This document shows, one piece after another, positions 21,584 through 31,595 of a stretch of 64,000 nt of DNA (position 1 is the first letter of the stretch; every line of letters starts with the position of its first letter). The stretch lies in NCBI GenBank assembly GCA_021769885.1, contig JAETSA010000002.1, positions 1 to 64,000 on the forward strand, written 5' to 3'. The stretch is from Bacillota bacterium (GTDB taxonomy: Bacteria > Bacillota > Clostridia > Oscillospirales > Acutalibacteraceae). Below the pieces are notes generated by a model that saw only the letters and a program-made list of their open reading frames with translations, was not told the origin of the DNA and did no database searches. Position numbers and translations under genes: made by a program.

Positions 21584-21841
21584 CTATGCATCCGTATTCG
21601 CCTTATATTTTTCACGCGTGGCAAGGCCGCCGCGGATGTGGCGCTGCGCTTTGTTGACGTCGAGCACCTCGCGCACTTCGTTGTAAAGACCCGGACTGAT
21701 TTTTTCCAAACGCTTGGCAACATCCATATGTACAGTGCTTTTGCTGATGCCGAAAACCTTTGCGGCGGCACGAACCGTCGCTTTATTCTCTACAATATAT
21801 TCCCCCAGCTCCACGGCGCGGTCTTCTACACAATCTTTCAA
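21584..21841 (-). CDS. spoIIID: stage III sporulation transcriptional regulator SpoIIID
   Basis: An 85-residue SpoIIID, the mother-cell DNA-binding protein that adjusts sigma E and sigma K regulons during endospore formation. DRAVELGEYIVENKATVRAA then VFGISKSTVHMDVAKRL is the family's helix-turn-helix. The start codon is TTG at 21841, seven bases after GGAGGG. A possible sigma E promoter lies upstream (21873-21897). It shows that the organism makes endospores. Divergent from the interrupted SASP gene. Confidence 0.96.
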   Translation of the reverse strand: MKDCVEDRAVELGEYIVENKATVRAAAKVFGISKSTVHMDVAKRLEKISPGLYNEVREVLDVNKAQRHIRGGLATREKYKANTDA

Positions 21842-21897: not shown

Positions 21898-22022
21898 GCC
21901 TGCACCGCGGATGCATCATTTCAAAATTTTAGCAATATTAGAATTTATTCTCTTTCATATCTGCACAAAGAAAGTTCAAAATACTATTGCAAACGCAAAT
22001 ACAAAGCAAAGGAGTGTTTACA

Positions 22023-22124
22023 GTGGCTAGCAGAAACAAAACAGTTGTTCCCGAGGCTCGTGCGGCTCTTGACAAGTTCAAGATGGAAGCTGCTTCTGAC
22101 CTTGATGTACCCCGCCCATATTAA
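22023..22124 (+). pseudogene. alpha/beta-type SASP gene, 5' half, interrupted
   Basis: GTG at 22023 follows AAGGAG by eight bases and opens a reading frame starting VASRNKTVVPEARAALDKFK, the N-terminus of an alpha/beta-type small acid-soluble spore protein. Native coding ends with MEAAS and GA at 22098-22099; beyond that the frame enters the inserted element and stops at 22122-22124 after eight foreign residues. The break falls in the conserved germination-protease recognition stretch (EAASE). The rest of the gene is at 31405-31522. In the present arrangement only a 33-residue fragment could be made, lacking the second DNA-binding half. Confidence 0.93.
22098..22112. other. attL of the SASP element
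   Basis: The crossover dinucleotide GA (22098-22099) is followed by CCTTGATGTACCC, the element's left half-site. It is the exact inverted copy of GGGTACATCAAGG at the right end (31390-31402), which is again followed by GA. Confidence 0.88.
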
Positions 22125-22140
22125 AACGGGAGGTTTGTTG

Positions 22141-23787
22141 TCATTCCGTGTTCAATTCTTCCATTTCACCTACAAATTTATAAAAAATCCGTATGGATTG
22201 CTCGAATGGAGAACTATCGTGTGTTGCTCTTGTCATTCCTTGCGGAAGGATTTTCGGTCCAACCTCAATTCTATCCACAAAAGTAAGCAGAATATCTCTA
22301 TCCAATTTTTCAATATAGGTATATTTTTTTGTAAGCTCGAAGAACATTTTGTAGTTGTTACTTTTGCTCTCAGCTATCGTATTATCATTAAGCTCCAAAA
22401 GTTCTTTATGAATTGCAGCCGATTCTTTCTGTAAGTCACCCACCATTTGTTCAAGGCGTTCATCTTCCAGTCTGCCCTCGGCATTGTCTACATAAATTTT
22501 CGGAATGATTTTATCAATAACTTTTAAACGAGCTTCTAATTTTTCCGCCCTTGCTTTTTTCGCCTTAACAGCTTTGTCAGAATTTTCCGCTTGTATTATA
22601 TTTTCGACAATCGCATCAATTTGTTCGTCGCTTAAAGCAAGTAACGAATTAAGGTCATCTTTCACAAGAGTCATAAGCGTTTCATAGCGAATTCGCGACC
22701 CTGTACAAGGATTCGAGATGTCTTTGCGCTTATTGATACAACCAAGATACCAATACTTTTCCCGTTCTCCTTTGTATACCGTTCCGCAGGAACAAAGCGC
22801 GTGTCCGCATAAAGCACAATAAGCAATACCGGAAAAAATGCTTTTTCTTACACGGTCATATGCACGATAATCACGTGTGCCTTTCCCCAAATTTTCTTGT
22901 GCTCGTTGAAAAATTTCTTCCGATACCAAAGGCTCGTGCGTGTTTTTGGTAACAGCCCATTCTTCTTTTGGTACCGGTATTTTCTTTTTGGATTTCACAC
23001 TGACTTTTTTCGATTTTCCTAAAATGGTATGTCCTAAGTACACCTGATTTTTAAGAATTCGCTTAACAGTTGTGTAATTCCAAACGTCTGATGCCCTTGT
23101 AGCACCTTCTTCGGTAAAAGTGCCGGTAAACAGAACCCTATACTTCAGCGGCGGAAATACCCCGTCTTTGTTTAAATCCATTGCAATTTTGCGAGAGGAG
23201 TCCCCTCTTGCAGCAGAATGAAATATGCGTTGAACAATTGGAGCAGTCATTTCATCAGGAATGAGCAAATTATTGTTGTTCTTTGCTTTTTTGTAACCGT
23301 ATGGCGCACAAGCGCAATACAGCCCTTCTTCGCGTTTATTGCGAAGAACATCCTTGACTTTTTTTGACCCGTCTCTCAAATACACTTCATTCATTGCAAA
23401 TTGAAACGGCGCCATAATATTTTCCCGCTCACTGTCAAAATTATCTGCAATCGCAATATATCGAATAGCGTGTTCCGGGAAAAACTGCTCGGCGTAATAA
23501 CTGGATTCCCGCATATCACGCCCAAGTCTTGAAAGGTCTTTCGTGATTATCGTATTTGCTAAGCCCTTATCCAACTCACGCATCATATTTTGAAAATCAG
23601 GTCTGTCAAAGTTACCGCCGGAATAACCGTCATCAACAAACTCTCGAACAAGTGTTATACCATTTTGTTTACAATAGTTGGAAACAATCATTCGTTGATT
23701 TGTGATACTGGACGATTCTCCGCTTTGTGCTTCTTCTCTTGAAAGCCTGAAATAAGCAAAGGCGATGCTTTTTTGAATGGTTCTCAT
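22141..23787 (-). CDS. large serine recombinase (TndX/TnpX-like)
   Basis: A 548-residue site-specific recombinase. The resolvase domain (about 1-160) has the catalytic serine in AYFRLSREE (Ser16) and the arginine motif KDLSRLGRDM; the Recombinase domain follows to about 280; then a zinc ribbon (YCALCGHALCSCG with a distant GC and PC) and a lysine-rich coiled coil (about 410-500). Size and GA crossover match the enzymes of Tn5397 (TndX) and Tn4451 (TnpX). It begins 41 bp inside attL and reads toward it. It should catalyse both integration and excision here. The start overlaps the end of the 63-residue ORF by 4 bp. Confidence 0.95.
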   Translation of the reverse strand: MRTIQKSIAFAYFRLSREEAQSGESSSITNQRMIVSNYCKQNGITLVREFVDDGYSGGNFDRPDFQNMMRELDKGLANTIITKDLSRLGRDMRESSYYAEQFFPEHAIRYIAIADNFDSERENIMAPFQFAMNEVYLRDGSKKVKDVLRNKREEGLYCACAPYGYKKAKNNNNLLIPDEMTAPIVQRIFHSAARGDSSRKIAMDLNKDGVFPPLKYRVLFTGTFTEEGATRASDVWNYTTVKRILKNQVYLGHTILGKSKKVSVKSKKKIPVPKEEWAVTKNTHEPLVSEEIFQRAQENLGKGTRDYRAYDRVRKSIFSGIAYCALCGHALCSCGTVYKGEREKYWYLGCINKRKDISNPCTGSRIRYETLMTLVKDDLNSLLALSDEQIDAIVENIIQAENSDKAVKAKKARAEKLEARLKVIDKIIPKIYVDNAEGRLEDERLEQMVGDLQKESAAIHKELLELNDNTIAESKSNNYKMFFELTKKYTYIEKLDRDILLTFVDRIEVGPKILPQGMTRATHDSSPFEQSIRIFYKFVGEMEELNTE

Positions 23788-23975
23788 AATACCTCCTTTG
23801 ACTGAATCGAACCATCAAATTGATTATACACCGAAGCATTATTTTCAGTCAATGGTGGTATATTGGATTTTCTATCTAAAACTCGCTGTTCAATGAGCAT
23901 TGCAGGTGTTTTATCTCCTACAAATACTCTGTTGATAACGTACTTTGTGTTTTCCGCATTTTTATTCACTCGCAT
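23784..23975 (-). CDS. small protein coupled to the recombinase
   Basis: A 63-residue protein (contains TKYVINRVFVGDKTPAMLIE) with GGGAGG seven bases before the ATG and an ATGA overlap with the recombinase gene. No domain recognised. The tight coupling to the recombinase makes it a candidate accessory factor, for instance a directionality factor, but that rests on position only. It is the first gene after the tandem-terminator leader at 24041-24133. Confidence 0.65.
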   Translation of the reverse strand: MRVNKNAENTKYVINRVFVGDKTPAMLIEQRVLDRKSNIPPLTENNASVYNQFDGSIQSKEVL

Positions 23976-24040
23976 CGGTATACCTCCCTTTTATATTTTT
24001 TCCTTTTTTTTGAAATTTAACACAACAAAAAATAATCAAG

Positions 24041-24133
24041 AAACAAAAAAGAGCCGCAGCTACACCAAAACGGTATAGATACGACTCTATGCTTTGAAAA
24101 TAAAAAAACGCCACCCATAAACGAATAGCAGAT
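24041..24133 (-). promoter_or_regulatory. tandem-terminator leader, copy A
   Basis: Read leftward there are two hairpins. The first (GCTATTC ... GGGTGGC, 24129-24109) runs into seven T residues; the second (GAGTCGTA ... TGCGGCTC, 24087-24051) runs into six T residues. Both pair with several G-U pairs. The same two hairpins occur at 29823-29921. They stand between a plausible promoter (TTGACT 24192-24187, 16 bp, TAGATT 24170-24165) and the small ORF plus recombinase, so expression should be attenuated unless an antitermination event occurs. Confidence 0.65.
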
Positions 24134-24192
24134 TTGAGTAAAATTATTTTGTTATATTATATGTAATCTAACATAAAATCTCAAAAAGTCAA

Positions 24193-25562
24193 GAGAAAAT
24201 ACAGAAAAATTTTCAAACTTTTATTCAAGTATTACACCCCAAAATACCGTAGGTAACGTACATACGAAGGCAGACCAAATGTTAATCACGCTCCTTCTTT
24301 TCACTTATGTACTGCGACATTTAATTTTTGTTCTTTAATATTGTTTCGGTATGTAAGGCTTTTTTGAAAGTGTTTGCTTCTGTTCTTCGCTAGTTTTAAT
24401 GAAGCATAAAAAATGCTGTCTATTTATGCTGTATTTTTTCCTTTCTTATGTTCCTTACTTGGAGTTTATTAAAATTATTACGCCCTTTAAATATCATAGG
24501 TACTGTAGATAAATGTTAATATGGCTTTCTTCCTTTTACATAGCCGTTCGGCGCAAATTTGAGCCGCCTAAAACAGCAGTCATTTTCCACTGCGCAAATA
24601 AAAACATATCCTGTGCACCTAAATTCAAATTCGCGCCGGAGAGCTTATGTTGTGACATTTTATTATTCTTCTTTAATGTTGTTTCTGTGTGTAAGTTCTT
24701 TTGATTTTGCCGTTAGATTTTTGTGCGTAAGAAAATATTAAATATCAAGTTATATTGGTCTTTCTTATTCTCCTTACTTGGGTCAGTGTTCAAAAATGTT
24801 GTGCGTGCTGACGATTTAGTTTTATACGTAAAGGCTTTTGATTTTTTTGAGATTGTGCGTTTAGGCAAACACCTTTTTCTTTGCTTAAAAAAATTCATCG
24901 TGAACACACAGTAAAAATTGCCTATATCGGTGTTTTCGAAGGATTTTTCGGGAACAAAAAGCACGCAAAATCAAGCTTTGTACGCGTTTGCTTTTGTGCT
25001 AAAATTAAAGAGTCAAATTTTTGCTTATTTTTAGCACAATTACATTACCCTTTTTGAGCCTTTTTGCTATGCGATTATAGAAAATTTTGACCGTTTCATT
25101 GCCATTTATAATAACCGTATCGTGTAAATGCGCAATACAATTAGGGCTGTCGTCAGCAAGAAAAGCCGAGAAAATTGTGTCAAATTATACTTGATATTAG
25201 AGATTATCTGTGTCAAGAACAAACGGTTTAGGTATTGAATTTCAACAACATTTTGATTATGAAAAAGGCCTTTTTGTTGTAAAATTTGATGCAATTTCCT
25301 TTATAAAATGTTTTTAAACTGCATAAAAACTCGTGAAAATTCGGTTGAAAAGTGTAACCTTCCGTTCAAAAAATTCTTGTGTATTTGGCTTCTTGGAATG
25401 ATTTTTTTGCGTAATGACGGCAAAATCATTTGCAAAATTTCACCGTGTTTTTCAATATGTTATCCAAAAATATTGACATTTTCAGTTGTACTCATCATGA
25501 TTTTTCCTTTTTCAAAAATGCAAAAGGATTGTGAGAACTGCATCTTTTTTGGCAAGAAAAAA
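24193..25562. other. AT-rich stretch without a convincing gene
   Basis: About 1.4 kb with only short, low-quality reading frames lacking ribosome sites. It holds an imperfect direct duplication (about 24278-24470 and 24500-24790; shared pieces AAATGTTAAT, GACATTT, TTCTTTAAT, TGTTTC, TGTAAG, CTCCTTACTTGG-like), with a small MITE-like insertion in the second copy. Possibly decayed former cargo. Confidence 0.5.
24541..24643. repeat. MITE-like element, short copy
   Basis: Left end TAGCCGttCGGCGCAAATTT, right end AAATTCGCGCCG followed by GAGAG. The ends match the termini of the 273-bp element at 44549-44821. The neighbouring duplicate at about 24300-24330 reads TTTTCACTTATGT without the insert, whereas here TTTTACA and CTTATGT flank it, so an empty site is visible. 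Confidence 0.65.
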
Positions 25563-25594
25563 GCAGACCTGAGATAACGGGTTCTCAAGTCTGC
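25553..25594 (-). terminator. terminator after the DUF3990 gene pair
   Basis: On the minus strand GCAGACTTGAGA pairs with TCTCAGGTCTGC (25594-25583 with 25574-25563, one mismatch), followed by TTTTTTCTTGCC. Confidence 0.85.
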
Positions 25595-25608
25595 GGTAAA
25601 TTTTGAAT

Positions 25609-26037
25609 TTAGATTTTTTTCTTTGCGTTGTAGGTATCTTTCAAGCGGTCGATTGCCATTTCAGGACTCATCGTGTGATACATCAGATACATCGCTCGCA
25701 TTGTCTTTGCAGGAGCTTGCTTGTAAATATCACGGCTGCGCTCTCCGGTGTAAATATTCCAATAGCGGTAAATGTACCCCATCCAATATAAGGTTTCCGT
25801 ATCATAAACTTGACCTTTTTTTAGTTCTTCTTTGCATTCATCCTCCATTCGGGAAAGAATATAGCTTTTGCCTGCCCATTGGATGTGGTTGAAGTCCTTA
25901 TCCATATCTGCCGCAACATTTGTGGTCATAAAAGCCTTTGCAAAGCTTTCGGATTCATACTCCTCTGTGCCGGACAGTTCAAAAAGTTTTCCTTGCGTAT
26001 CGCATAACGCCAGTTGCAATGATTTATTCATTTTCAT
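25609..26037 (-). CDS. partner protein of the DUF3990 gene
   Basis: A 142-residue soluble protein; I do not recognise a named domain. The second half is rich in aromatic and basic residues (YWMGYIYRYWNIYTGERSRD). Its start overlaps the stop of the XRE-DUF3990 gene by 4 bp (ATGA), so the two are translated together. By analogy with other two-gene cassettes it may be the second component of a toxin-antitoxin-like pair. A terminator follows. Confidence 0.75.
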   Translation of the reverse strand: MKMNKSLQLALCDTQGKLFELSGTEEYESESFAKAFMTTNVAADMDKDFNHIQWAGKSYILSRMEDECKEELKKGQVYDTETLYWMGYIYRYWNIYTGERSRDIYKQAPAKTMRAMYLMYHTMSPEMAIDRLKDTYNAKKKI

Positions 26038-26879
26038 TTACCTCCGAGGATCTCGTCAAAGAATTTTCCTTCTCTGCGGTATGAAACCTCGATTTCCTCA
26101 GCCAGTGCGATGCCTTCCTTTCGGCGTGCAGCGCTTAGATCAATCAAAGCAGAAAGTTCCAACGGCTGCAATGGAATTTCATTGACAATTTTTATCTGAC
26201 GGCACGCCTTTTCAGAGATTGCCACATACTGTCTTCCAAGATCCAATGCGGAAAGGCAATTTATTAACGCAACATCTGTAAGTGTGCGATTGAAAAATCG
26301 GGACAGTTCGGTATACATACGGTCATTGGCAATATAGCCGGTAATGATATCATACCCCTCTGCCATCTCCGAATACTTCTCATAAATTTCGGTGCCTTTT
26401 GCCGATTCCATTTCCTTGCGGTAGTATGCAATCAGCATAGCCCAATCCATATCAATTCCGACCTCTAAAACCTTTAAATCGGAAAGGTCAAGCTCTACAG
26501 TATAGAAAACAGGCTTGTTTTCACCGCAAACAAGAGTCAGCGGCTGCAGAGTGCTTGTTCCCATATAAAAGCCCTGACCGAAATCACACTCTTCACGGCT
26601 GATGGGTGCTATATCACCCACAATGCCGGACTTGGAGCCATGATATAAAATAAGCCTATCATCCGTATGCTTATATTCCTTGGATTTAACAATCCATCCG
26701 GCAATATTAATTCCACGGTCCAAGCAAAACTGATACAACTGCCTTTGCGCCATTTTATTCGGGACAGATTTTCCGTTCTCCCATCGGTTAATCGACGGTA
26801 CTGTTGTACCGAGGCTTGCAGCAAAATCCTCCTGGCTCAGGTTTGTTTCGGTACGAATAAACTTTATTAAATCCTTCAT
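26034..26879 (-). CDS. XRE-DUF3990 fusion, toxin-antitoxin-like
   Basis: A 281-residue protein. Residues 1-60 are an XRE helix-turn-helix (FIRTETNLSQEDFAASLGTT, then VPSINRWENGKSVPN); residues from about 75 form a DUF3990 domain (LILYHGSKSGIVGDIAPI, CDFGQGFYMGTS), a family with ADP-ribosyltransferase-like sequence features. DNA-binding domain and effector are therefore in one chain. ATG at 26879 has AGGTGA eight bases upstream; a start six codons earlier is less likely. Its promoter overlaps an inverted repeat, suggesting autoregulation. Activity unproven. Confidence 0.8.
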   Translation of the reverse strand: MKDLIKFIRTETNLSQEDFAASLGTTVPSINRWENGKSVPNKMAQRQLYQFCLDRGINIAGWIVKSKEYKHTDDRLILYHGSKSGIVGDIAPISREECDFGQGFYMGTSTLQPLTLVCGENKPVFYTVELDLSDLKVLEVGIDMDWAMLIAYYRKEMESAKGTEIYEKYSEMAEGYDIITGYIANDRMYTELSRFFNRTLTDVALINCLSALDLGRQYVAISEKACRQIKIVNEIPLQPLELSALIDLSAARRKEGIALAEEIEVSYRREGKFFDEILGGK

Positions 26880-26889
26880 ATAAGCATCA

Positions 26890-26940
26890 CCTATCATTTG
26901 ATTGCTTTTTTATTATACGCTATGATAGGCGAAAAGTCAA
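26890..26940 (-). promoter_or_regulatory. promoter and operator of the XRE-DUF3990 gene
   Basis: Minus strand TTGACT (26940-26935), 17 bp, TATAAT (26917-26912). The inverted repeat CCTATCAT (26890-26897) / ATGATAGG (26922-26929) flanks the -10 box and start site, a typical autorepression layout for an XRE protein. Confidence 0.75.
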
Positions 26941-27010
26941 CGACTTTTGCAATATCCGTGTCAGAAGTTTCTGTGATGTAAATAGATGTAACCCATTTTA
27001 GATAAAAAAT

Positions 27011-27102
27011 GTGGTTTTCTGTTGCGCGTTGCCTCGCGAAACTGTCTTAAGACACGAACAGAAACCATCCCGCGGCGACTGTCAGTTAACGCGGGATGGT
27101 TT
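27011..27102. other. two adjacent hairpins in a gene-free gap
   Basis: GGTTTTCTGTT (27013-27023) pairs with AACAGAAACC (27057-27066), and CCATCCCGCG (27065-27074) pairs with CGCGGGATGG (27090-27099), with TTTTG after the second on the plus strand. TGTCTTAAGACA (27043-27054) is a perfect palindrome inside the first loop. The stems share two bases and so compete. It may be a terminator or a small structured RNA; no gene lies between 26898 and 27212. Confidence 0.5.
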
Positions 27103-27212
27103 TGTTCAGCAAATCGGATATTATATTATTTCTTATGCTATATAGCTTTTAAGGCGCAAAGCACAATCCATACAAATATCCTATCCGCAAGAAAGATAGT
27201 GCATCACACGGA

Positions 27213-27866
27213 TTATTTCGCGATGTATTGCACCCATTCTTGGATATTGCTGATATTGTCTCCGCTCGGGTAGGTTGCCGATTCTTTGGATTCGTCCTTA
27301 TAGTAATAATAGGTGTAAACCGGTTCCTGATAATACCAGCGAGTTGCATAATGGTTTTCATCGTATTCATAATCATACAACCACATATTTTTCGCGCCGC
27401 AAGTCGGACATGCGTATGAGCCTAAGAACTGTATGCCATACTCAGCTGAATAATATCCGTTTCCTAAAGCCCATGTCAAATCAATTTGGTGACGTGCCCA
27501 GTTGGGGGCTGTTGAATCTGTACCCCATTTGCTTCCACTACATCTATGATAATACACATAGTGATGTGTGGTAGAAGAAACATATTGCTCGCTCCAAACA
27601 TTTCTTGAACCGTTGTTTGGATCAGAATAAACCGGTCCTTGCGTTGCGCCCCAATCGGTTCTCTTGGTGTCATACTTCGTCCAACCGCTCATACTTGAGG
27701 AGCCGGAGGTTGTATAGGAACGCAGAGTATAGGTATACTTTTGATTTACAATTGTTGCACCGACAGGTGCTTCGGAGGCCAATACCCAGTCTAAAGTTTC
27801 ATTCAGTAACTGCTGATATGCATTCTCGCTGATTAAAACAATCTTTTGTGCAGTTGTATCTGTCAT
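27213..27866 (-). CDS. hypothetical protein, probable frameshifted gene
   Basis: A 217-residue reading frame rich in Tyr and Trp, with one CPTCG pair near residue 155 and no recognised domain. The ATG at 27866 has no ribosome site. In contrast, ATG 27976 follows GAGAGG and opens MPISSVLDVAQYILEKGK, which ends after 22 codons; a one-base shift near 27915 joins it smoothly (GNVVDAYDYLQQADGTK) to this frame. The intact gene would span 27976-27213. The N-terminus resembles the start of DUF4065 (Panacea) antitoxins, but the rest does not, so this is tentative. Confidence 0.5.
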   Translation of the reverse strand: MTDTTAQKIVLISENAYQQLLNETLDWVLASEAPVGATIVNQKYTYTLRSYTTSGSSSMSGWTKYDTKRTDWGATQGPVYSDPNNGSRNVWSEQYVSSTTHHYVYYHRCSGSKWGTDSTAPNWARHQIDLTWALGNGYYSAEYGIQFLGSYACPTCGAKNMWLYDYEYDENHYATRWYYQEPVYTYYYYKDESKESATYPSGDNISNIQEWVQYIAK

Positions 27867-28042
27867 CTTCGTGCCGTCAGCCTGCTGTAAATAATCGTAT
27901 GCGTCTACTACATTTCCGCAAGCTTACCTTTTTCTAAAATGTATTGTGCTACGTCTAAAACGCTTGATATCGGCATAGTAACCTCTCCCGTGGGATAGTT
28001 TTTAATAGACATTCATTTTTACGCCTCGCTTCTTTATATAAT

Positions 28043-28071
28043 ATTATACTAATAGCCACACCCAATTACAA
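28043..28071 (-). promoter_or_regulatory. promoter module shared with fic
   Basis: Minus strand TTGTAA (28071-28066), 17 bp, TATAAT (28048-28043), then GAGGCGTAAAAATG. The same promoter and ribosome-site DNA stands before fic (31046-30981). Here the ATG is followed after three codons by a stop. Confidence 0.7.
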
Positions 28072-28215
28072 GAAAGACAGCTGTGAATCGGCGAATGCTT
28101 GCGCTGGTTGAATTCGGATATTCTGCATTTACGCAAAACAGGAGGGAATACAAGGGATAGGCTATGCGTGTAATAGGCCCGGGCAGGAGATGGCGCTCCT
28201 GCCGGGTTGCAAAAA

Positions 28216-29460
28216 TTACGATGCGGATTCTAATTGCTGTGAAGATTTTATGAGTTTTGCTGCTCCGTTTCCATTCACATAGTCTTCATCAATGGTGACG
28301 CGCTTGACCGTTTCATCACTCGGCAGTTTGAACATCAACGGATTTAAGATCCTTTCCACAATACTGCGCAAGCCTCTTGCTCCGGTTTGATTTTCAATCG
28401 CCTCTTTTGCAATACACACCAATGCATCGTCTGTAAACTTTAAATCAATCCCGCTCAATTTGAATAGTTTTTTGTATTGAGCGATGATAGAATTTTTCGG
28501 CGTATCTAAAATGCGACGTAAATCATCGATATGTAAGTCTTGCAAAGTACATATTATCGGCAGTCTGCCAACTAATTCAGGCAGCATGCCGAATTTGTGC
28601 AAATCGCACGGTAACGGCGTACACACCTTCGACGACGTTTTGTTTGTATTTTCATTATGGAAGCCAATCGTACTTTTTCTGGACAGCCGATGTTCGACAA
28701 TATCCGAAAGCCCGACAAACGCACCGCCGCAAATAAACAGGATATTTGTGGTATCGATTTGCAGACAGTTTTCGGTTGGGTGCTTTCTGCCGCCGTTCGG
28801 CGGTACACTGGCAAGCGTGCCTTCCAAAATCTTTAAAAGGGCTTGCTGAACGCCCTCGCCGCTCACATCGCGGGTGATAGAAACATTCTCTCCCTTTCGG
28901 GCAATTTTATCAATCTCATCGATATAAATAATTCCCTTTTGCGCCAGTTTAATATCATAATTCGCGGCTTGAATCAATCTTAAAAGGATATTTTCGACAT
29001 CATCACCCACATAGCCTGCCTCTGTCAGCGTCGTCGCATCCGCAATGGCGAACGGCACCTCTAAATATTCTGCGAGTGTTTTGGCGAGCAAGGTTTTTCC
29101 CGTACCTGTTGGACCGAGCAATAACACATTGCTTTTATCCAGTTTCATTCTCGGATGGAAGATACGCATATAATGATTGTAAACCGCCACCGACAGCGTT
29201 TCCTTCGCCTCGTTCTGACCGATGATATGCTTATCGAGATGCGCCTTAATATCCATTGGCTTCGGCAATTCTTTTCCTCCTTTCTCTTCCTTGGGCTTTT
29301 CAGGTTGTTTGTCCAATCCTTGGTCTGAAAGTATGCCGTTGCATATTTCCAGACAGGACTCACAAATAAAGCCGTCACCGCCCTTAATTAGGTACTGCAC
29401 ATCGCTTTGCTTTTTTAAGCAGAATGAGCAGCGTGCTTCTTTTGTTTGTTTTGTTGACAT
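28216..29460 (-). CDS. clpX: ClpX-type AAA+ unfoldase encoded on the element
   Basis: A 414-residue ClpX: zinc-binding domain with Cys11, Cys14, Cys33 and Cys36; Walker A GPTGTGKT (116-123); pore loop GYVG (149-152); Walker B IIYIDEID (177-184); RKH loop (225-227); and the IGF loop (265-267) that docks on ClpP. All parts of a working ClpXP unfoldase are kept, so it is not a remnant. Lying inside the inserted element, it is a cargo paralog rather than the usual clpP-clpX locus. GAAGGGAGC precedes the ATG. Targets unknown. Confidence 0.95.
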
Positions 29461-29773
29461 AAAAGTCAGCTCCCTTCAAAAAATGTGTTGGAAATCCAAC
29501 TGTATATATATCGTAAAAATCCGTCTTTTTTTGCCCCTGTTTTTGAAAAAAGTTTTTATTTTTTGCATATTTTAGTGCTTTTTCAGGATTTGTACTGCGA
29601 AATCTCGACAAAATCTCCGCCAAAAGCCCCATCTTTGTTACGGGCAAACGAAAAACGCAAGCGTTTTCGCCTGCAAGTGTGCAGGCGTTTTTGCTGCCGC
29701 AAAAATTCGTTTGCCCTACGCTTTTTGGTTGACATTTTCTCAATCCTTCCCAAGTTCCAACCGGAACTATCAT
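29384..29773 (-). CDS. cysteine-containing ORF ahead of clpX
   Basis: A 129-residue frame with an excellent ribosome site (AAGGAGG, seven bases before ATG 29773). The first 60 residues ([16 protein letters not shown], then [20 protein letters not shown]) look like a real peptide with spaced cysteines; the rest runs through the clpX ribosome site and overlaps clpX by 77 bp, so it may be a leader or a decayed gene. A second frame starting [16 protein letters not shown] near 29734, with AAGGA upstream, overlaps it. Which is used is unclear. Confidence 0.4.
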
Positions 29774-29822
29774 AACAAATCCTCCTTGTTTTATAGATCG
29801 GATTTCCTTGATAACAATATAT

Positions 29823-29921
29823 AAACAAAAAGAGCCGCAATTTTGCCCGAAAAGGCAAAAATACGACTCTATTTTTTATTACTATATAAAAAACTGCCAC
29901 CCGTGGACGGATAGCAGATAT
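29823..29921 (-). promoter_or_regulatory. tandem-terminator leader, copy B
   Basis: Leftward, CTGCTATCC ... GGGTGGCAG (29916-29893) runs into TTTTTTATATAG, then GAGTCGTA ... TGCGGCTC (29869-29832), enclosing a TTTTGCC/GGCAAAA inner stem, runs into five T residues. Paired bases differ from copy A at 24041-24133 yet keep pairing. It follows a consensus promoter (TTGACA 29984-29979, 17 bp, TATACT 29961-29956) and precedes the Cys-rich ORF and clpX. Confidence 0.7.
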
Positions 29922-29955
29922 AAGTTATTTTTTATTATAATTATTATATTAAAGA

Positions 29956-29984
29956 GTATAACGCCTATTTTATGATGTGTCAAG
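29956..29984 (-). promoter_or_regulatory. promoter of the clpX operon
   Basis: Minus strand TTGACA (29984-29979), exactly 17 bp, TATACT (29961-29956). It should be strong by itself, so control probably lies in the terminators downstream. The rest of 29985-30173 shows nothing further. Confidence 0.75.
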
Positions 29985-30173
29985 AGTTATTTTTGATTTT
30001 AATTTCCTACTTTCATTGACGAAAAACAGGCTCACAGATTAAAACAGGGTTAAAAACAACAGCGTTGCAGATAACTGTGCTGTCGTTTCTGCTTCCTATC
30101 TCCGGCAATTATATATAGGTATTTCCGAATACTTATTGCCCCGGTCGGATATTTTAATGTCACATTTTTAATC

Positions 30174-30983
30174 TTAAATGTGTAAATCTCGGTTGTGCAA
30201 TTCGTTTTTCTCATCCAAAAGGAGATTTTTTAAAAACAGTTCAAGATATTCCGTTGTTTCGTGAATGTCTTTTTTTAGGTTTGTATAATTTGCACGAACG
30301 AGGGCATTTCGGAAGTACCACGCATTTTCAGCAAAAATATCATTATCCGCCGAAAAGCCAAGCATACGCAAATATTTTATCAGGAACACGGCTGTCGTTC
30401 TTGTATTTCCTTCGCCAAAAATATGAATTTGCCACAACCTTGAAATAAAGACCGCTAAATGATGTATAATTTCGTCCATAGAAAGTCCTTTGTAACTAAA
30501 TTCCTTTTCTTGTGAAAAATCATATTCCAGAGCGGCTTTCAACTCAAACGCACTACCGTACAAAACAGTTTCGCCGTCCAAAACCCATTCTTTTTTTGTA
30601 ATATTGTAGTCTCTGATTTGCCCGGCAAACTTATAAATACCTTGGAACAATTTTCGGTGAATCGCAATGTATTCATTCGGAGAGAAAGTAAATGCGTTTT
30701 CCGAAAGAATTTTCGCAATTCGCGCCGAAACCTTGTCAGCTTCTTCGGTTCTGTTTGTATCGACATGTTTCGGCTTTTCCTCGTAATAACTGCTGATAAG
30801 CGATTGGGCTTCTTGCATTGTAATTTTGCCTTCAATATTTTGAATAGCCGTATCGATTAAGTATTGAGACGGACTGAGCCCGTCCACAGCCTGCAACCCG
30901 ATTGCGGTATTCCACGCATAGCCTTTTTTGGCTTTGTCAGGTTCACCTTCTTTGATATATGCTTTGAACGGGTCTTTGTTCAT
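30174..30983 (-). CDS. Fic family protein
   Basis: A 269-residue Fic-domain protein. The active-site loop is HIFGEGNTRT (187-196), with the catalytic histidine and the GNxR phosphate grip; Fic enzymes transfer AMP or other nucleotide parts to target proteins. An upstream IQNIEGK (47-53) sits where class II proteins carry the inhibitory (S/T)xxxE(G/N) helix, but the Ser/Thr is missing. GAGGCG precedes the ATG. It is the cargo gene nearest attR, behind the promoter module it shares with the frameshifted gene. Confidence 0.9.
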   Translation of the reverse strand: MNKDPFKAYIKEGEPDKAKKGYAWNTAIGLQAVDGLSPSQYLIDTAIQNIEGKITMQEAQSLISSYYEEKPKHVDTNRTEEADKVSARIAKILSENAFTFSPNEYIAIHRKLFQGIYKFAGQIRDYNITKKEWVLDGETVLYGSAFELKAALEYDFSQEKEFSYKGLSMDEIIHHLAVFISRLWQIHIFGEGNTRTTAVFLIKYLRMLGFSADNDIFAENAWYFRNALVRANYTNLKKDIHETTEYLELFLKNLLLDEKNELHNRDLHI

Positions 30984-31017
30984 TTTTACGCCTCATTTCT
31001 TTTCTCAAGTCATTAAT

Positions 31018-31046
31018 ATTATACTAAAAATCACGCCTAATTACAA
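31018..31046 (-). promoter_or_regulatory. fic promoter
   Basis: Minus strand TTGTAA (31046-31041), 17 bp, TATAAT (31023-31018); nearly the same DNA as 28043-28071. Confidence 0.75.
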
Positions 31047-31250
31047 GGCAAACGCTTGTGTTTTCTGATTTTATTCAAACTTGTTATTGCGGCAGTCAGC
31101 GCAGATTCCGCTGCATTTGCGTTATTCTTTCGTGTGGTTGTCGTTGACAGCGTTTCAGGTATTTCAGCTATAGTTTATATGCCTATTCCTAACGTCCTTA
31201 TATGCGGTCGTGTACTCTTTTTCGGGCAGTTTATCCGCAACGGTGTATCA

Positions 31251-31286
31251 AAAAAGCATCGCTTTTTGAATTGCGATGCTTTTTGA
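31251..31286. terminator. terminator-like hairpin near the right end of the element
   Basis: AAAAAGCATCGC (31251-31262) pairs perfectly with GCGATGCTTTTT (31273-31284). It can stop transcripts in either direction. No gene lies in 31050-31404. Confidence 0.8.
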
Positions 31287-31389
31287 GATTCGATTCAGTT
31301 CATTCTTGTTTGATGTGTGGAACATCAGCCCCATTTTAGGGTTAAAATGCCAACAATCATTGATTATACTCAATTCTTTAATAACACTC

Positions 31390-31404
31390 GGGTACATCAA
31401 GGGA
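31390..31404. other. attR of the SASP element
   Basis: GGGTACATCAAGG (31390-31402) followed by the crossover GA (31403-31404) and then chromosomal AGTGGGCGTAAAC, which continues the SASP frame. Confidence 0.88.
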
Positions 31405-31522
31405 AGTGGGCGTAAACCTGAAGCAGGGCTACAACGGTGACCTTACCTCTAAGCAGGCAGGCTCCGTCGGCGGTCAGATGGTTAAAAAGATGATCAAGTC
31501 TTATGAAGACGGCTTGAAATAA
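31405..31522 (+). pseudogene. alpha/beta-type SASP gene, 3' half, detached
   Basis: With GA supplied by the core, this reads E-VGVNLKQGYNGDLTSKQ, then AGSVGGQMVKKMIKSYEDGL and K, stop TAA at 31520-31522: the DNA-binding second half of an alpha/beta-type SASP. It has no start or promoter of its own. Joined to 22023-22099 it gives a 64-residue protein without any frameshift or missing residue. A normal terminator follows, so the gene was intact before the insertion and could be again after excision. Confidence 0.93.
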
Positions 31523-31553
31523 CTTCGTTCAGAAAATTTTTTCGGACAAAAAG

Positions 31554-31595
31554 GTCTGCCGGAGCATTTGCTTCGGCAGACTGCTTTTTTATTTT
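31554..31595. terminator. terminator of the SASP gene
   Basis: GTCTGCCGGAGC (31554-31565) pairs with GCTTCGGCAGAC (31570-31581, one G-U), followed by six T residues (31585-31590). It separates the SASP 3' half from the convergent aminotransferase gene. Confidence 0.88.

Follow-up and report, generated by a model that had tools for sequence, protein, structure and literature searches.

A serine-recombinase element splits the only detected alpha/beta-type SASP gene of an Acutalibacteraceae genome and may be excised to restore it in spore-forming cells

The window analyzed here is a 64,000-nucleotide stretch of contig JAETSA010000002.1 (assembly GCA_021769885.1) from a Bacillota bacterium of the family Acutalibacteraceae, in which a gene for an alpha/beta-type small acid-soluble spore protein (SASP) is divided by an element of 9,305 bp. 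The 5' half of the gene (22023 to 22099, forward strand) begins with a GTG start codon and ends in a GA dinucleotide, and the 3' half (31405 to 31522, forward strand) includes the stop codon; both halves matched PF00269, and neither was decayed. Joining of the halves through GA gave a 64-residue SASP in a frame without a stop. In the integrated state, the 5' half continues to 22124 and yields a truncated product of 33 residues. The split coordinates, the GA join and the 64-residue product had been proposed in an initial annotation of the sequence and held on inspection, as did the ribosome-binding site and terminator that it had assigned to the gene: AAAGGAG precedes the GTG (22008 to 22014, forward strand), and a strong terminator-like hairpin of 13 pairs follows the 3' half (31553 to 31582, forward strand). 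Farther upstream, AAGTTCAAAATACTATTGCAAACGCAAATACA (21971 to 22002, forward strand) is a conserved SASP upstream element that probably marks the forespore promoter region. This motif, learned from the regions upstream of 38 intact SASP genes of the same clade, was present at full strength in the window (score of 17.1 versus a training median of 16.2) and exceeded the 5% shuffle threshold in 32 of 55 split genes. Alpha/beta-type SASPs are made in the forespore, so the PF00269 match also supports the forespore target named in that annotation.

The window genome (2.32 Mb, 97.6% complete) contained the two halves and no other PF00269 match. The initial annotation had suggested counting other SASP genes and had offered, as a fallback, the decay of one copy among redundant genes; the count returned the two halves only, and the fallback was set aside because the split gene is the sole PF00269 SASP and is undecayed. 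Among the window genome and its relatives (n = 118), a PF00269 match was detected in 100 genomes and was single in 90. Across the order, 333 of 394 genomes had a match.

The crossover dinucleotide GA was placed at 22098 to 22099 in attL and at 31403 to 31404 in attR (both forward strand) by sequence and by comparison of joined genes. The recombinase-side attP arm (22100 to 22127, forward strand) consists of CCTTGATGTACCC (22100 to 22112) and a distal motif, CCCATATTAAAA (22116 to 22127), and the distal arm is GGGTACATCAAGG (31390 to 31402, forward strand). When the inner ends were rejoined, the resulting attP, GGGTACATCAAGG-GA-CCTTGATGTACCC, formed a perfect 13-bp inverted repeat, with a second matching block 20 to 26 bp out from the core. 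Judged from its sequence, this predicted attP is near-ideal, with symmetric arms about the dinucleotide as for a large serine integrase, and conservative recombination of attL with attR would restore the gene exactly. In relatives the arms follow a plan of CCTTGGTGTnCC, a short gap and CCATCTTAAA on either side of the core, with variation.

Beside attL lies a gene for a large serine recombinase of 548 amino acids (22141 to 23787, reverse strand), with Resolvase, Recombinase, Zn_ribbon_recom and DUF4368 domains and an intact catalytic motif, YFRLS. Its start is overlapped by a small open reading frame (ORF) of 63 amino acids (23784 to 23975, reverse strand), a candidate recombination directionality factor, and a SigA-type promoter-like site of the recombinase, TTGACT-18-TATAAT (23823 to 23852, reverse strand), falls within the end of this small ORF. 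The initial annotation had described the layout of a sporulation intervening element, exact restorability and a functional-looking recombinase; with att sites and recombinase intact, this description appears sound. The closest long solved relative of the recombinase was YokA (9dxh, E 3e-21), which we take to be SprA of SPbeta, and the closest solved catalytic domain was that of TnpX of Tn4451/Tn4453 (2mhc, E 1.2e-34). TnpX is a transposon-type recombinase, and we know of no SASP specificity for it.

Both SASP halves, with the same cut, were found in nine genomes: those of the window, G059, G087, G149, G275, G321, G375, G391 and G443. The last six were among 18 genomes given a closer look, which were picked by eye among the order-wide matches listed. 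Two partial cases, G373 and G379, had a SASP 3' half adjoining a recombinase, and the split rate in the order was at least 11 of 333 SASP-bearing genomes, two of them partial. Nine recombinases from split-SASP genomes were 52 to 65% identical to that of the window. Scanning of species-representative genomes with an alignment of those nine recovered 103 relatives, and the counts given here use the best 80 (49 to 76% identical). In 76 of these 80 loci, a SASP half was detected no farther than about 300 bp from where the recombinase match ended: a 3' half in the same orientation as the recombinase in 65 and, as in the window, a 5' half in the opposite orientation in 11. The inverted orientation took six changes on the recombinase tree, at least four of them forced by well-supported branches, and repeated changes would be expected if orientation were set by the core dinucleotide alone. 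No other full-length SASP was detected in 73 of the 76 split genomes (genome completeness not given), the exceptions being G461, G468 and a long-form match in G500. All four genomes in which the recombinase was not beside a SASP half had an intact SASP. No SASP half was found beside any of 80 more distant recombinases from viral contigs (at most 49% identity), in a SASP profile search run at E 0.01 without the --max setting used for the 80 relatives and on contigs of which some were short beyond the recombinase.

Joining of the halves worked for 55 of 56 pairs, and all 55 joined genes were in frame across the junction, with no stop or frameshift. The crossover fell at the same GA and in the same codon in 54 of the 55, the window included. 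The normal SASP end was reached by 44 joined genes, and the other 11 were cut again near the 3' end; G496 is absent from the joined set, its MESASD lying outside the junction search pattern. An in-frame join alone proves little, because precise recombination always restores its target. The pattern goes beyond chance because one GA in one codon was cut in 54 of 55 genes and 76 of 80 recombinases lay beside a SASP half. Related elements cut the host SASP at one GA in dozens of related species. The lone exception among the 55, G482 (L084/L239), had CA on both sides, the att core and the codon having changed together. The SASP 3' half at L063 also had CA at the core position.

Evidence bearing on continued use of the split gene came from Agathobaculum, in which the recombinases of seven species formed one clade on the recombinase tree. 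Among six of these species, synonymous divergence (dS) was 0.37 to 3.1 for the recombinase (one pair saturated) versus 0.28 to 1.76 for two host flanking genes, and recombinase and host genes agreed on the closest pair. Cargo genes common to the elements of four Agathobaculum species (L094, L101, L104 and L106) were 88 to 98% identical, close to the identity of the host flanks. Over 15 Agathobaculum pairs, which are not independent of one another, the 5' coding half of the SASP had zero amino acid changes at a proportion of synonymous differences (pS) of 0.29; entries with nd = 1 arose from windows that took in one codon before the ATG. In the same pairs, changes in the 3' half were confined to the last six residues (pS of 0.28). 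Eight Agathobaculum genomes with an intact SASP encoded nearly the same protein. Purifying selection therefore acts on both halves even as the host and the recombinase diverge, which is hard to explain without regular restoration, because a 3' half lacking a start codon should not survive selection unless it is rejoined. This is the main argument for restoration.

Of 12 genomes with a wholly or partly split SASP, 11 had gpr, the gene for the SASP-specific protease; it was present in G000 and was detected in 58 of the 76 split genomes. As controls, it was present in three genomes with an intact SASP and absent from three without SASP. The sigG match of G000 spanned positions 1 to 251 and scored 407.9 bits, below the curated 457, which was reached by Bacillus subtilis only. 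On the basis of gpr, the forespore programme is largely kept in carriers.

All 75 elements tested had a small ORF immediately ahead of the recombinase gene and in the same orientation, with loci of less than 300 bp upstream excluded and a profile seeded with nine of these ORFs. With the start chosen by rule, its length was 40 to 99 amino acids, and 50 to 69 in 57 of the 75. Searches of Pfam, PHROG and PDB gave no noteworthy family assignment, the window copy had no match in NCBIfam, and an AlphaFold2 model was poor (mean predicted local distance difference test score of 68). Of the 75 elements, 59 had a SigA-type site of the form TTGnnn-16 to 19-TATAAT in the 180 bp preceding the recombinase (shuffle mean, 0.3) and 71 a looser form (shuffle mean, 3.7), shuffles being mononucleotide in 30-base blocks. 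A host SASP promoter reading straight into a directionality gene at the left end was also considered, and was not seen in the few elements inspected by eye.

The initial annotation had stated that known elements of this layout interrupt mother-cell genes, in agreement with the available portions of PMC4191935 and PMC6957869. Intervening elements have been described in sigK, spsM, gerE and other mother-cell genes, and in the accessible parts of these sources excision is confined to the mother cell, the spore genome retaining the element (PMC4191935, PMC6957869, PMC5595907). No report of a SASP gene as the target of such an element was found in a literature search whose coverage left out most subscription journals. 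The skin element in sigK (SpoIVCA in B. subtilis; CD1231, with the directionality factor CD1234, in Clostridioides difficile) is, as here, a serine-recombinase element that splits a single sporulation gene at its att core, and the C. difficile recombinase is constitutive and has a SigA-type promoter, as predicted for the window element (PMC5025042, as far as available). Constitutive expression of the integrase, with the small factor as the regulated part, is described for SPbeta as well as for the C. difficile element (PMC5025042, PMC8270828). However, sigK is a mother-cell gene whose element is excised in the terminal mother cell, whereas SASP is a forespore gene.

SPbeta in spsM (SprA/SprB) resembles the window element in pairing a constitutive serine integrase with a small directionality factor (PMC8270828, PMC4191935, in the parts available). 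It differs in being an active phage whose excision was seen solely in mother-cell DNA, whereas the seven ORFs tested in the window element included no phage gene. A further likeness is gin in gerE of Bacillus cereus ATCC10987 (GirC/GirX), which is non-phage, carries cargo and interrupts a very short sporulation gene; in the accessible text of PMC5595907, gin involves a mother-cell gene and few strains, whereas here dozens of species are involved. As read from its sequence, the window element shares the anatomy of the class of sporulation gene-intervening elements (skin, SPbeta, vfbin and gin) and differs in the compartment of its target; a mother-cell target, which is typical of the class but does not define it, is absent.

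We favour, with moderate confidence, the interpretation that this is a non-phage, SASP-specific serine-recombinase element that would be excised to restore the SASP in spore-forming cells. Excision is probably a precondition for carriers to produce well-protected spores. In growing cells, the SigA-type promoter would express the recombinase alone, and the element would be kept integrated. A transcript from farther upstream would co-express the small ORF, the best candidate for a directionality factor, with the recombinase, leading to excision of the element as a circle and to restoration of SASP in cells turning into spores. Because SASP acts in the forespore, excision would have to occur there or before septation, and with a forespore target the excised state would be inherited through the germ line if the circle were not inserted again. 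Persistence of the element would then depend either on incomplete excision or on reinsertion of the circle at outgrowth, for which the vegetative recombinase alone could suffice. A reversible germ-line switch, in which a housekeeping-expressed integrase would keep the element in the sole SASP during growth and the element would exit as a circle in the prospective spore, allowing the spore DNA to be coated, stay in the spore and refill the same dinucleotide at outgrowth, is a real though tentative possibility.

Several points weigh against the favoured interpretation. Neither an excised junction nor an attP circle was observed, the inspected assemblies representing the integrated form. Lineages would tend to lose the element if it were excised in the forespore, and sporulation of the carriers is itself an assumption. 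The dS of the recombinase mostly exceeded that of the host genes in Agathobaculum, and related elements may have replaced each other. The protease gene gpr was undetected in 18 of the 76 split genomes and in G373. With B. subtilis-type consensus sequences, neither the recombinase nor the small ORF showed enrichment of SigG, SigF or SigE sites; this result weighs little, because the SigG consensus found none of the 38 intact SASP promoters of this clade. The clade's own SASP upstream motif exceeded the 5% shuffle threshold upstream of 10 of 75 small ORFs and 12 of 75 recombinases, which is unconvincing.

Candidates for excised or restored forms were rejected individually. A 24-mer of attP had 0 matches in viral contigs. 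Reading L060, L109 and L122 as circles failed, since by eye none continued into a distal arm of the known type, and MT836041.1 contains an inverted SASP 5' half and is an integrated copy. The extra SASP of G468 aligned with its joined gene at only 88.6%, and that of G461 differed from its 3' half.

If the element were instead an ordinary one that uses the conserved SASP as a safe landing site, its excision would be rare and unregulated, its insertions recent and the spores of its hosts few or without SASP. Near-identical recombinases in different families (96.5% between G087 and L105, which is G275), three insertions at other genes, and the lack of both a visible sporulation promoter and, in 18 genomes, a detected gpr would all fit such an element. 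The absence of any stop or frameshift at the junction of all 55 joined genes argues against it, as do the deep co-divergence in Agathobaculum with purifying selection on both halves and the detection of gpr in most split genomes, and we regard it as rather unlikely. Excision and reintegration might alternatively proceed at a low rate during growth, with an intact-SASP subpopulation sporulating and no developmental trigger. SASP is well established to be dispensable in growth, and the recombinase promoter is of the housekeeping type in 59 (strict form) to 71 (loose form) of 75 elements. However, no restored allele was recognised beside a split one, the extra full-length matches being those of G468, G461 and G500, and excision by serine integrases generally depends on a directionality factor (PMC5025042, available portion). 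We consider this scheme improbable.

The gene is interrupted and its 3' half has no start of its own, as would be expected of a non-functional relic or redundant copy. This view is already contradicted by the sole status of the SASP, the use of the same site in dozens of species and the intact state of recombinase, att sites and halves, and is very improbable. That many of the relatives are metagenome bins would allow for an assembly artefact, but the recombinase was also found beside a SASP half in Agathobaculum massiliense Marseille-P4005 (on a 3.2-Mb contig), Flintibacter muris DSM 110149 and bacterium D16-76, leaving this explanation a negligible probability.

In the available parts of the literature, the programmed excisions so far described in spore formers are somatic and take place in a doomed mother cell. 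The split SASP would imply either a germ-line rearrangement with a reintegration cycle or spores that, in many carriers, lack the main DNA-protecting protein, and either outcome would alter current views of the resistance and transmission of spores. To our knowledge, no forespore gene has been described as undergoing programmed rearrangement; a germ-line switch, if true, would be the first such case, effected by an element family present across many related species. The recombinases also provide many naturally occurring integrases that share a single, strongly conserved attB.

Further cuts were found in forespore genes. The additional cut near the 3' end of SASP, present in 11 of the 55 joined genes, is apparently made by another, unrelated serine recombinase family with 23% identity to the first. 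At L083 (17547 to 19214) and L067 (9900 to 11567), the reading frame of this second recombinase terminates within the final SASP residues, and L273 had a 67% relative. No second-family recombinase was seen in the other cases within the stretch fetched. SASP with the 3'-end cut was present at L062, L064, L067, L068, L075, L076, L078, L083, L117, L128, L132 and L261, and SASP matches stopped at position 52 to 54 in L273 to L279. In many loci the SASP cut near its 3' end gains a similar element-coded tail, and in some genomes the gene is in three pieces.

The sigG gene of Agathobaculum was also split, at YAVPM/IIGE, with TGCCGATGA common to most loci (L284 to L309). Among 15 Agathobaculum genomes, both parts were found in 13, the 5' part only in G498 and a single piece in G325. 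In all 13 cases examined, a serine recombinase frame (459 to 532 amino acids open) terminated 34 to 36 bp ahead of the IIGE codons. In A. massiliense (L285 being the 3' part), 112 kb separated the two parts; in the single-contig, 4.0-Mb genome G397 (L290/L291) they lay on opposite strands at a distance of 757 kb. With parts so far apart or on opposite strands, restoration would need an inversion or a larger rearrangement, or else the parts serve as two proteins. Collectively, the second SASP cut and the sigG split suggest that forespore genes are recurrent targets.

The remainder of the window element is occupied by five cargo genes, all on the reverse strand. These encode a protein of 142 amino acids with a below-threshold match to DUF3791 (25609 to 26037), a helix-turn-helix protein with DUF3990 (26034 to 26897), a protein of 217 amino acids without a family (27213 to 27866), a ClpX-type AAA+ ATPase with zf-C4_ClpX (28216 to 29460) and a Fic-domain protein (30174 to 30983). 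In a check for defence functions among the cargo, a PADLOC scan of the ClpX-type protein gave only weak AAA matches. None of the seven ORFs (recombinase, small ORF and five cargo genes) had a Pfam or NCBIfam match to phage structural or lysis genes, and no relaxase or conjugation gene was found among them. On the basis of these seven tested ORFs, the element is a non-phage integrative element. Outside it, the SASP gene is neighboured by the sporulation regulator gene spoIIID (21584 to 21841, reverse strand). The element of G275 carries relatives of two of the window cargo genes (25609 to 26037 and 26034 to 26897), and type I restriction, Gabija-like and S-layer genes are carried by some other elements. 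Element size elsewhere in Agathobaculum was 4.1 kb in G375, 19.7 kb in G391 and 23.1 kb in G443.

Additional observations were made at individual loci. L060, L109 and L122 appear to be insertions in other genes in genomes whose SASP is intact, and represent natural secondary sites for the study of specificity; at L113 the contig stops 2 bp past the recombinase match. In G027, from the genus of the window, a SASP 5' half is followed by the contig end 58 bp farther on. Another serine recombinase, 30% identical, is located about 2.7 kb from the split SASP of A. massiliense (L040, G391:3209811-3211418). Seven partial SASP matches, several of them beside a recombinase, were found in the single genome of L127 (G525), which suggests repeated or rearranged insertions. 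The locus L120 (JAMPEQ010000003.1, G059) is labelled Bacteroides sp.; it groups with the window's family and has SASP, gpr and sigG matches, and the name looks wrong.

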